46,452 bases of DNA from Ralstonia sp. ASV6 (GTDB lineage: Bacteria > Pseudomonadota > Gammaproteobacteria > Burkholderiales > Burkholderiaceae). A program made the position numbers and the translations under genes. The notes beneath the pieces are model-generated. The model was not told the DNA's origin. It was given only the letters and a program-made list of their open reading frames with translations, and did not search any database. This document shows positions 11,742-28,386 of the stretch, piece by piece (position 1 is the stretch's first letter; the number at the start of each line of letters is the position of its first letter). Location of the stretch: contig NZ_JAELUI010000029.1 of assembly GCF_016429285.1 (NCBI RefSeq), positions 1 through 46,452 of the forward strand. The letters are read 5' to 3'.

Positions 11742-12929
11742 TTAGGCGTGTGCCTTGAGCAGCGTACGGAGCATGCCGATCATCGTGTCGATTTCTTCGG
11801 TCGTCACGTTCAGTGCGGGCATGAAACGCAGGATGTTGGGACGCGGTGCGTTCAGCAGCAGGCCCGTCGGGTTCATCTCACGCGCGGCTTCGACCAGTTG
11901 GCCGCCGATGTCCTTGCCGAGCAGCAGGGCGCGCAGCAGGCCGTCACCGCGCTCGCCGGCCAGGCCGAATTCTTCCGACAGTTGCAGCAGCTGCTTGCGC
12001 AGGTAGGCGCCGCGCTCCTGCACACCGGCCAGGAAGCCCGGGGCCAGCAGTTGCTCGATCACCGAGCAGCCGACAGCCGTCATCAGCGGGTTGCCGTTGT
12101 AGGTGCCGCCCTGGTCACCGGCTTCGAAGCTGGCCACTTCATCCGTGCACAGCAGAGCCGACAGCGGCACGCCGCCGCCGATGCCCTTGCCCAGCGTCAT
12201 GATGTCCGGCTCGATGTTCGAGAGCTGGTAGGCGAAGAGGGTGCCGCAACGGCCGCAGCCTGCCTGCACTTCATCAACGATCAGCAGGATCTTGTGCTTC
12301 TTGGTCAGCGCGCGCAGTTGTTGCATGAACTCCGGCGTGGCGGGCAGTACGCCGCCTTCGCCCTGCACCGGCTCGAGCATCACGCCGACGGTCTCGTCGG
12401 TGATGAGTGCTTCCACCGAAGCGATGTCGTTCAGGATGGCCTTCGGGAAGCCCGGCACCTGCGGCGCGAAGATGGTGTCCCAGCCGGCCTTGCCCGACGC
12501 GCTCATCGTGGCGAGCGTGCGGCCGTGGAAGCTGTGGTCGAACGTGATGATCTGGAAGGCGCCGTTCTTATGCTTCTTGCCCCACTTGCGGGCGAGCTTG
12601 ATGGCGCCTTCGTTGGCTTCAGCGCCGCTGTTGGCGAAGAACACCTTGTCGAAGCAGCTGTGCGCGGTCAGCAGGCCGGCCAACTTGGCCATCGGCTCGT
12701 TGTAGAAGGCCGGGCTCGGGTTGATCAGCTTCTTGGCCTGCGCGTTGAGCGCCTCGATCATGCCGTCGTTCGAGTGGCCGAGGCAGTTGACGGCCCAGCC
12801 CTGCACGAAGTCCAGGTATCGCTTGCCGTTGTGATCCGTCAGCCACGAGCCCTTGCCTTCGGTGAAGACGATCTCGGGCCGGTTGGTGATGTACATCAGG
12901 GACTGGACGGGGTAGTCAGCAAACGCCAT
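11742..12929 (-). CDS. argD: Acetylornithine aminotransferase (ArgD family)
   Basis: This is a class III PLP aminotransferase of 395 residues, the ArgD length. It has the family motifs [42 protein letters not shown], and the PLP lysine in [11 protein letters not shown]. ArgD converts N-acetylglutamate semialdehyde to N-acetylornithine in arginine synthesis and can also act in lysine synthesis. Close paralogues (ornithine or succinylornithine aminotransferase) cannot be excluded from sequence alone. It is preceded by its own promoter, a short Arg-codon ORF and a terminator, which fits arginine control and supports the ArgD assignment. TGGAGC lies about 8 bp before the ATG. Confidence 0.88.
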
Positions 12930-12995
12930 GGCAAAGCTCCAGAAAAAGGCGGCAGGAAGATGAAAAAGTGGAAAAGCGCTGGTTGGAAAAAGACA

Positions 12996-13023
12996 AAGGC
13001 CACGGGGGTTGCCCCGTGGCCTT
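12996..13023 (-). terminator. Intrinsic terminator in the argD leader (candidate attenuator)
   Basis: On the minus strand: AAGGCCACGGGG, loop CAAC, CCCCGTGGCCTT, then TTGTCTTTTT. The 12-bp stem is very strong. It lies 66 bp upstream of the argD ATG and 34 bp after the stop of a short ORF with four tandem Arg codons. It is about 190 bp beyond the reductase gene upstream, with a promoter in between. It could therefore end a small RNA or act as an attenuator of argD. Confidence 0.9.
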
Positions 13024-13056
13024 GTGATCGTCGAATCCTGTGAACCCGATATGCAA

Positions 13057-13128
13057 TCAGCAGACAGCCGCGCGGCTTCCCGGAGGGAGCAACGTACGGC
13101 GGCGTCGGAGGTGCAGGGTTTGGTTCAT
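13057..13128 (-). CDS. Candidate arginine leader peptide upstream of argD
   Basis: A 23-codon ORF starts at ATG 13128 and ends with TGA at 13059-13057. Codons 8-11 are CGA CGC CGC CGT, giving LRRRRTLL, and another Arg is at position 19. The ATG lies 9 bases below the -10 of the promoter at 13137-13165, so the message may be leaderless. GACGCCGC within the Arg codons can pair with GCGGC-U-GUC near the ORF end (one bulge), as in segment 1:2 of a classical attenuator. I found only a weak candidate antiterminator. The ORF is too short for statistical support and has no homology evidence. Confidence 0.45.
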
Positions 13129-13136
13129 AAGGCGCA

Positions 13137-13165
13137 AGAATAAGACGGATGCCAAGTCAAGTCAA
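13137..13165 (-). promoter_or_regulatory. Sigma-70 promoter of the argD leader
   Basis: On the minus strand, -35 TTGACT (13160-13165), 17-bp spacer, -10 TATTCT (13137-13142). An A/T-rich stretch containing CGAAATTTCG lies just upstream of the -35. It starts 50 bp after the end of the reductase gene, so the downstream leader is transcribed independently of that gene. Confidence 0.65.
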
Positions 13166-13216
13166 AACGAAATTTCGACGTTCTTTGGATTTGTGCAACG
13201 GTAGGCAAGTCGATTG

Positions 13217-14266
13217 TCAGCCGGCCGGATGCAGGTCCGCCTCCGAGGTGAACGAGTCGGCGAAGAACGCATCCGGGTGCATTTGGCACTGGGCGGCAAA
13301 GTCCGTGCGGGCCGAGTTGATCACCACCGGCGCGCCGCAAGCGTACACCTCGTGGTTCGACAGATCGGGGTGATCGGCCATCACGGCCTGGTGGACGAAG
13401 CCTGTGCGGCCGGTCCAGGCGTCTTCGGGCAAGGCGTTGGAGACGACCGGCACGTACGTGAATCCAGGGATCGTGCGCGCCCATTCTTCCGCCTTGGCGT
13501 GCATGTACAGGTCTTGCGGGCGGCGGCCGCCCCAGTACAACGTCATCGGGCGCTTGCTGCCGATGAATTGCGCATGCTCGACGATGGCCTTGATGGGCGC
13601 GAAACCCGTGCCCGAGGCCAGCAGGATGATCGGCTTGTCGGACTCTTCACGCAGGAAGAAGCTGCCCAGCGGCCCTTCGAAGCGCAGGATGTCGCGTTCT
13701 TTCATGGCCGGGGCGCCCTCCTTGGCACCGAACACGTAGTCGGTGAAGGCGCCGCCCGGCATGTGGCGGATGTGCAGCTCGATCGGGCCTTCTTCGTGCG
13801 GCGGGTTGGCGATCGAGTAGCTGCGGCGCTTGCCGTCGCGCAGGAGGAATTCCACGTACTGCCCGGCCAGAAATTGCATACGCTCGGTGGCTGGCAGTTG
13901 CAGTTTGACGATAGTGACGTCCGGTGCAGCCTTTTCCAGCGAGGCCACGCGGCAGGGGATCTTCTTGATGGGCACATCGCCGGCGCCATGCACTTCGCGT
14001 ACTTCAATGGTGACGTCAGTTGCGGGCGTGGCACAGCAGAACAGCGCGCGGCCTTCGGTGGCTTCCTGGGCGGAGAGCGCGTTGGGCGAGTGGTTGCCCT
14101 GCACGATGGAGCCCTCGCGGACATGGCCCTTGCACGAGCCGCACGCGCCGTTTTTGCAGCCGTACGGCAGGCCGATGCCCTGGCGCAGCGCCGCTGCAAG
14201 GATGGTCTCGCCGTCTTCGGCCTGGAACTGGCGGCCGCTGGGCAGCACGTTGATCTGATAAGCCAT
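13217..14266 (-). CDS. 2Fe-2S ferredoxin / FAD / NAD(P) reductase (CDP-6-deoxy-delta-3,4-glucoseen reductase-like)
   Basis: This is a three-domain electron-transfer flavoprotein of 349 residues. The N-terminal plant-type ferredoxin has ligands CKNGACGSCKG and FCCAT (CxxxxCxxC...C). The FAD domain follows with RRSYSIANPP (RxYS), then the NAD(P) domain with LLASGTGFAPIKAI and the C-terminal YACGAPVVI. It is often annotated as AscD-like, but no sugar-deoxygenation genes are nearby. It is more likely a general reductase that passes electrons from NAD(P)H to an oxygenase or other acceptor. It is divergent from the epimerase-like gene, with only 14 bp between starts. Confidence 0.88.
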   Translation of the reverse strand: MAYQINVLPSGRQFQAEDGETILAAALRQGIGLPYGCKNGACGSCKGHVREGSIVQGNHSPNALSAQEATEGRALFCCATPATDVTIEVREVHGAGDVPIKKIPCRVASLEKAAPDVTIVKLQLPATERMQFLAGQYVEFLLRDGKRRSYSIANPPHEEGPIELHIRHMPGGAFTDYVFGAKEGAPAMKERDILRFEGPLGSFFLREESDKPIILLASGTGFAPIKAIVEHAQFIGSKRPMTLYWGGRRPQDLYMHAKAEEWARTIPGFTYVPVVSNALPEDAWTGRTGFVHQAVMADHPDLSNHEVYACGAPVVINSARTDFAAQCQMHPDAFFADSFTSEADLHPAG

Positions 14267-28301: not shown

Positions 28302-28386
28302 TGGTGCCCGAGGCCGGAATCGAACCGGCACGCCTTGCGGCGGGGGATTTTGAGTCCCCTGCGTCTACCAATTTCACCACTCGGGC
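28302..28386 (-). tRNA. leuX: tRNA-Leu (anticodon CAA)
   Basis: The 85-nt class II tRNA is read on the minus strand and starts GCCCGAGTGG. Acceptor arm GCCCGAG pairs with CTCGGGC, followed by A and an encoded CCA. The anticodon stem-loop is GGGGA-CTCAAAA-TCCCC, with CAA at positions 34-36, decoding UUG. A variable arm and a TTCGAATCC T-loop are present. It has its own terminator. The gene symbol follows E. coli usage and is tentative. Confidence 0.96.

Follow-up and report, generated by a model that had tools for sequence, protein, structure and literature searches.

Ribosome-mediated transcription attenuators are known from the his, trp, leu and ilv leaders. Attenuation is textbook matter for several amino acids, and arginine control in proteobacteria is taught as the work of the repressor ArgR. 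Leader ORFs need not carry a 5′ untranslated segment: a leaderless leader ORF has been reported for S. meliloti trpL, and leaderless initiation has been discussed for C. glutamicum ilvBNC. In Salmonella orf34-speF, consecutive Arg codons in a leader ORF are reported to sense arginine, with Rho, RNA folding and RNase G as the means of control over an ornithine decarboxylase gene, in a leader described as having no Rho-independent terminator (PMC6386406). A further RNA, which PMC10987360 lists under the equivalent names nc5U30, Bc_KC_sr7 and RIT34, is filed in Rfam as a small RNA, RF02884 BcKCsr7 ('Burkholderia sRNA 7'), with neither an ORF nor an arginine role given in the parts of its description considered here.

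The locus described below lies in a stretch of 46,452 nucleotides, hereafter the window, in which a short leader precedes argD. This leader shares with the his, trp, leu and ilv attenuators a leader ORF with cognate codons, a predicted alternative antiterminator, an intrinsic terminator and a cognate biosynthetic gene downstream, and differs from them in that the codons are those of arginine and the gene is argD. As in S. meliloti trpL, a leaderless ORF is proposed. Like orf34-speF, the leader contains an Arg-codon ORF, but it has an intrinsic terminator, whereas the Salmonella system employs Rho and RNase G and acts on an ornithine decarboxylase gene; on reading, the HIRRT*HIMM core given as the motif of orf34-speF in PMC6386406 is absent from the window ORF. 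Finally, the full RF02884 model matches here, in the same place before argD. From its sequence and modelled folds, the leader is very probably a ribosome-mediated attenuator that acts in cis on argD transcription and senses charged tRNA-Arg; what the leader contains, the order of its elements and the coevolution of its alternative folds make attenuation by arginine supply the best reading.

Layout of the leader before argD

Within 237 bp of the minus strand (13165-12929), a promoter, a short ORF and a terminator precede argD in that order (Table 1). In a simple scan of positions 12500-13600, this promoter was the sole promoter-like site (0.1 expected in shuffles), and the gap between the terminator and argD contained none, so that argD is probably reached either through the leader terminator or from the gene upstream. 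The promoter stands just 5′ of an ORF with a run of cognate codons, and by sequence an intrinsic terminator separates this ORF from the cognate biosynthetic gene. The terminator stem (13023-12996) comprises 12 bp, nine of them GC, and terminator-like sites taken alone are frequent in the region (1.3 expected by chance). A preliminary description, made from the letters alone, had named the TTGACT-17-TATTCT promoter, the 23-codon ORF with tandem CGA CGC CGC CGT, the 12-bp terminator and the identity of argD; all four were borne out, the ORF by its conservation across genera as well as by reading. Its proposal of a textbook attenuation order with the matching amino acid gains support from the recurrence of the layout in further genera and in part of the other families.

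Table 1. Coordinates of the argD leader elements in the window
Feature	Position	Strand	Basis
Sigma-70-type promoter TTGACT-17-TATTCT	13137..13165	-	Promoter scan and genome-wide promoter-plus-ATG pattern
Leader ORF, 23 codons and stop, probably leaderless	13057..13128	-	ATG at 13128, TGA at 13059-13057
Segment 1, Arg codons CGA CGC CGC CGT	13096..13107	-	Reading of the ORF
Segment 2, predicted antiterminator 5′ strand, also segment 1 partner	13054..13076	-	Folding and swap test
Inner hairpin between segments 2 and 3, predicted	13031..13049	-	Fold of the window only
Segment 3, predicted antiterminator 3′ strand, contains terminator 5′ arm 13023-13012	13011..13030	-	Folding and swap test
Segment 4, terminator 3′ arm	12996..13007	-	Terminator scan
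T-rich tail after terminator 3′ arm	12995-12986	-	Terminator scan
argD, acetylornithine transaminase	11742..12929	-	NF002985, 784.7 bits, cut-off 568

Conservation and probable translation of the leader ORF

DNA upstream of argD was compared in 116 genomes of the order and 80 named loci. The family part of this sample consists of the 98 genomes with an argD match out of 120 sampled, the 22 without a match at the limit used being left out; the other-family part consists of 18 genomes above the curated family cut-off, from 82 matching among 150, and 60 further matching genomes of the order scored below that cut-off and lie outside the sample. The named loci are the best 80 of 587 and hence a set of close relatives.

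The layout stands before argD in 75 of the 98 argD-bearing family genomes and in all of the best 80 of 587 named loci, which belong to Burkholderia, Paraburkholderia, Caballeronia and Trinickia (79 recognized by filter, L177 by eye). In other families of the order it was judged present in 10/18 genomes and 5/9 families examined, most of these leaders having a −10 box that is a weak match. Leader DNA was matched in all 65 genomes of the genus of G102, identified as Burkholderia by a contig that G062 has in common with L162, and in 16/16 genomes of the window's own genus. Loss of the Arg run in relatives had been set beforehand as an observation that would speak against attenuation; the run is kept at all ten own-genus argD loci inspected and in 12 of the 19 family genera. 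Leader peptides vary widely (for example, MNRIQSELRRRRSPLP, MNLIAIASIRRRRTLPQPGCRAARYRLR and MNTAIIRRRARTLLPSGVPRG), and the Arg run is kept throughout. Recurring in several genera and in part of the other families, the layout goes beyond chance by comparison of sequences.

The leader is missing at 23 of the 98 family argD loci. In the inspected genomes of two such genera (g17 and g19), argD follows directly after the upstream gene. The leader is absent as well from the ten genomes of g13, and from a few others that have a gap before argD. Some calls were made by eye: G222 and L177 were included in this way, and so were the leader and hairpin of G244, which the terminator finder had missed. 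G244 and G107, whose start is masked, count as present in the genome tallies and stand outside the 163 leaders analysed, a set that includes some genomes twice; in G107 (L128), two start-codon bases read NN and the rest of the leader is present. ORFs in G038, G051, G053, G103, G234 and G260 were judged to be chance occurrences, of which only that in G038 had entered the leader table. Statistical tests used either 56 leaders less than 0.93 alike or 28 representatives (12 family genera, 7 N-terminal types of the named loci and 9 other-family genomes), both sets still being composed of related sequences. Two representatives from one other family (L067 and L068, in G222 and G261) encode only Arg-Arg followed by scattered Arg, and they form the two strongest duplexes of segments 2 and 3 among the 28.

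The pattern of sequence change suggests that the leader ORF is probably translated. In a frame-free test, CGACG shares the frame of the first ATG downstream of the best promoter in 51/56 leaders (three are out of frame and two have no ATG), and eight different numbers of codons precede the Arg run among the leaders. Among 16-codon ORFs (73, a good part of them from closely related genomes), third positions are the most variable (entropy 4.9, 7.0 and 8.8 for codon positions 1, 2 and 3). All 163 leaders have a −10-like hexamer 6-9 nt upstream of the ATG, at exactly 7 nt in 127, a spacing that is partly by construction since candidates were selected for such a hexamer 4-9 nt before the ATG; a Shine-Dalgarno-like motif within 16 nt upstream of the ATG occurs in none of the 163. 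With 6-9 nt between the −10 box and the ATG and no ribosome-binding site in front of it, the ORF is probably leaderless, and we infer a leaderless start in this organism. Measured from the A of the ATG, the last stem base lies 143-152 nt away at 21 Burkholderia loci, and 147-149 nt away at 14 of them. For B. cenocepacia J2315, PMC10987360 gives the RIT34 transcript a length of 147 nt, which fits a start at the ATG in a comparison by length alone, the J2315 sequence not being among these loci.

Codon choice in the run is narrow. Its first codon is CGA in 54/56 leaders, and the 205 Arg codons at run positions 1-4 are all CGA, CGC or CGT, with no CGG, AGA or AGG; CGA accounts for 2 of 109 Arg codons in the five window ORFs taken as genes. 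A genome-wide search with the promoter-plus-ATG pattern returned nine matches, against five for the pattern read backwards, and apart from argD a short ORF with an Arg run begins at only one of the nine. This match (L273, C462:51811-51849 of the window's own genome) opens the 8-codon ORF MPPRRRPP, with Arg encoded as CGA AGG AGA; it was rejected as a second leader, as the ORF and the next start codon overlap, with no space for a terminator, and it is probably due to chance.

Predicted alternative folds of the leader RNA

Only a weak antiterminator (GGCUGU with ACA-AG-GCC) had been recognized in the preliminary description. Folding for alternative structures instead predicts a long imperfect helix in the window, in which 13076-13054 pairs with 13030-13011. 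With a ribosome placed at the second of the Arg codons, the window RNA from there to the terminator loop folds at −32.7 kcal/mol, compared with −24.2 for the terminator alone. With the ribosome edge set at 14 nt by assumption, the terminator 5′ arm is paired upstream at a probability of at least 0.5 in 55/56 leaders when the ribosome is stalled and in 16/56 when it is at the stop codon, the values for the window being 0.73 and 0.03. On average over the 56 leaders, the arm pairs upstream at 0.78 with the ribosome stalled, at 0.39 with it at the stop codon and at 0.40 without a ribosome, and shuffled middles still pair the arm upstream at a mean of 0.49. The antiterminator is also predicted without a ribosome, in the window (0.68) and in 23/56 leaders. 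In the complete leader, the terminator is predicted to be more stable than the antiterminator even when a ribosome is stalled, and antitermination must therefore win by timing, which also decides between the folds of classical attenuators.

The two strands of the predicted antiterminator were examined in a swap test, in which the segment 2 of each representative was paired with the segment 3 of every representative. Native combinations are better by 2.95 kcal/mol across the 28 representatives (z −6.1), a value reached by none of 20000 permutations; 24/28 representatives are negative and four go the wrong way. The advantage is found both within the family (19 representatives, 1.67 kcal/mol, z −3.5) and in other families (nine representatives, 4.76 kcal/mol, z −4.2). 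Among controls, reversed segment 2 gives a z of −0.2, its reverse complement −1.3 and the sequence after the terminator 0.6, while the promoter region reaches a nominally low value of −2.0 (p 0.03); all four fall well short of the native result. Since kinship is not modelled in the permutations, the z-values are inexact as probabilities. By this comparison, segments 2 and 3 coevolve. The changes can be followed in pairs: terminator arm GGCCGCAC goes with segment 2 GTGCGGCC, and arm GGCCACGAG with segment 2 CTCGTGCGCC. In one leader (L230), the terminator loop is altered together with segment 2, and its duplex is among the strongest at −24.2 kcal/mol.

Tests on single leaders and on the Burkholderia-group alignment count against the pairing. 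Duplex energy goes beyond shuffles at p<=0.05 in only 25/84 leaders of the genome set and 44/80 named leaders, and that of the window is not beyond its shuffles (p 0.125). RNAalifold recovers only an invariant GGC:GCC in 36 Burkholderia-group leaders (z −0.4 versus column shuffles), and reaches a z of −3.7 in the group of nine leaders that contains the window. An antiterminator that excludes the terminator according to ribosome position is suggested by prediction and coevolution. The pairing of segment 1 with segment 2, also proposed earlier, stands as a folding prediction: in the window 0.74 of the bases in the Arg run pair downstream, and over 56 leaders the mean is 0.69, versus 0.53 when the downstream part is shuffled; the swap test lends this protector pairing no support (z −0.8).

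If the leader works as these folds suggest, RNA polymerase would start at the AUG or a few bases from it, and a ribosome would load onto the leaderless ORF. When arginine is scarce, the ribosome would stall on CGA-CGN-CGN, leaving segment 2 free to pair with segment 3 before segment 4 is made, and transcription would continue into argD. When arginine is ample, a ribosome at the stop codon would cover segment 2 or permit its pairing with segment 1; with segment 2 unavailable, the terminator would form and a leader RNA of approximately 135-150 nt would be released. Both the stalling on Arg codons and the response of the argD leader to arginine are expected from this scheme.

Competing explanations and arginine control in the order

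The RNA has been classified differently. In the Rfam reading, it would be an independent trans-acting sRNA gene (BcKCsr7) that merely precedes argD, with an incidental ORF. RF02884 matches the window leader over the whole model at 33.8 bits, which, like the scores in its own genus, falls below the gathering cut-off of 59 bits; among the 120 family genomes, 46 score above the cut-off and 69 at E<=0.01. A second match in the window's own genome (33.0 bits) covers the end of another ORF and a terminator-like hairpin and looks like chance, and one of 14 control genomes also gives a match below the cut-off, so that the score of the window alone proves little. The B. cenocepacia RNA is listed as expressed and altered under some stresses (PMC10987360), and the RNA released by an attenuator could also act in trans. 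Against an independent gene, all 46 above-cut-off places sit just upstream of argD, the frame of the ORF is kept together with the Arg run and the antiterminator, the coevolution of segments 2 and 3 is left unexplained, and the simple scan finds no promoter between the terminator and argD. There is also precedent for reassignment: in PMC5688073, 82 B. cenocepacia 5′UTRs are reported to yield short transcripts through processing or attenuation, and 15 supposed sRNAs are reclassed as 5′UTRs. We infer that nc5U30 is among the 82 and precedes argD. Taken together, an independent sRNA gene appears improbable.

Still less probable is a partial terminator that works constitutively, next to an Arg-rich ORF that arose by chance in GC-rich DNA. 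Both CGN codons and sites resembling terminators are frequent here, the spacing of promoter and ATG alone is not rare in the genome, and L273, another match to the pattern, likewise begins an ORF of 8 codons, three of them for Arg, but chance does not account for conservation over genera and families, the use of CGA, the kept frame or the coevolving segments. Control by the leader ORF in some other way, for instance via Rho or mRNA decay, has its precedent in the arginine-sensing ORF of Salmonella orf34-speF (PMC6386406), yet it is just as hard to credit for an argD leader with a strong intrinsic terminator and a coevolving antiterminator, the speF leader being reported to have no Rho-independent terminator.

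No counterpart of argD attenuation by arginine supply was met among the papers listed. The words 'arginine' and 'leader' do not occur in the main text of PMC5688073, no mention of the argD leader was found in the portions considered of PMC4603805, PMC8632094 and PMC2965389, and the matches listed in a search of titles and abstract openings, which covers few subscription journals, include no arginine attenuator of argD. The RNA is known as the filed sRNA BcKCsr7, and its role as an arginine attenuator was not met in the literature searched. Such a role would give 'sRNA 7' a testable function and would show how a 5′UTR attenuator can pass for a trans-acting RNA.

The contrast drawn at the outset with ArgR-controlled proteobacteria holds. 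A search with PF01316 found ArgR neither in the window's own genome (0/1), which speaks against an ArgR-controlled operon there, nor in any of the 120 family genomes, and was positive in 9/14 control genomes; ArgR is reported as conserved in many groups of gammaproteobacteria and absent in the other classes analysed (PMC5343134). With ArgR not found in these bacteria, the leader would offer an arginine sensor for at least one biosynthetic step. In the same genome, carA (L267, C638:4210-5310) has no Arg-run ORF upstream; a TATAAT lies approximately 220 nt before it, leaving a long leader. It may have another kind of control, and carA is listed among attenuated or structured 5′UTRs in PMC5688073.

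A broader and much more tentative reading, which we hold to be possible rather than likely, is that of an arginine attenuator, widespread in the order, doing for argD the job that ArgR does in enterobacteria. It would read a single tRNA isoacceptor because the run codons are CGA, CGC or CGT only; by the wobble rule, one inosine-bearing tRNA-Arg reads all three. The rare CGA in first place would serve as pace-setter, leaderless initiation would tie the ribosome closely to the polymerase, and a further role in trans may fall to the RNA or peptide that is released. The near-invariant position of this rare codon allows a direct test of codon choice in attenuation. Elsewhere in the window, a tRNA-Leu (CAA) gene at 28302-28386 on the minus strand is the sole tRNA found and the only above-threshold Rfam match.
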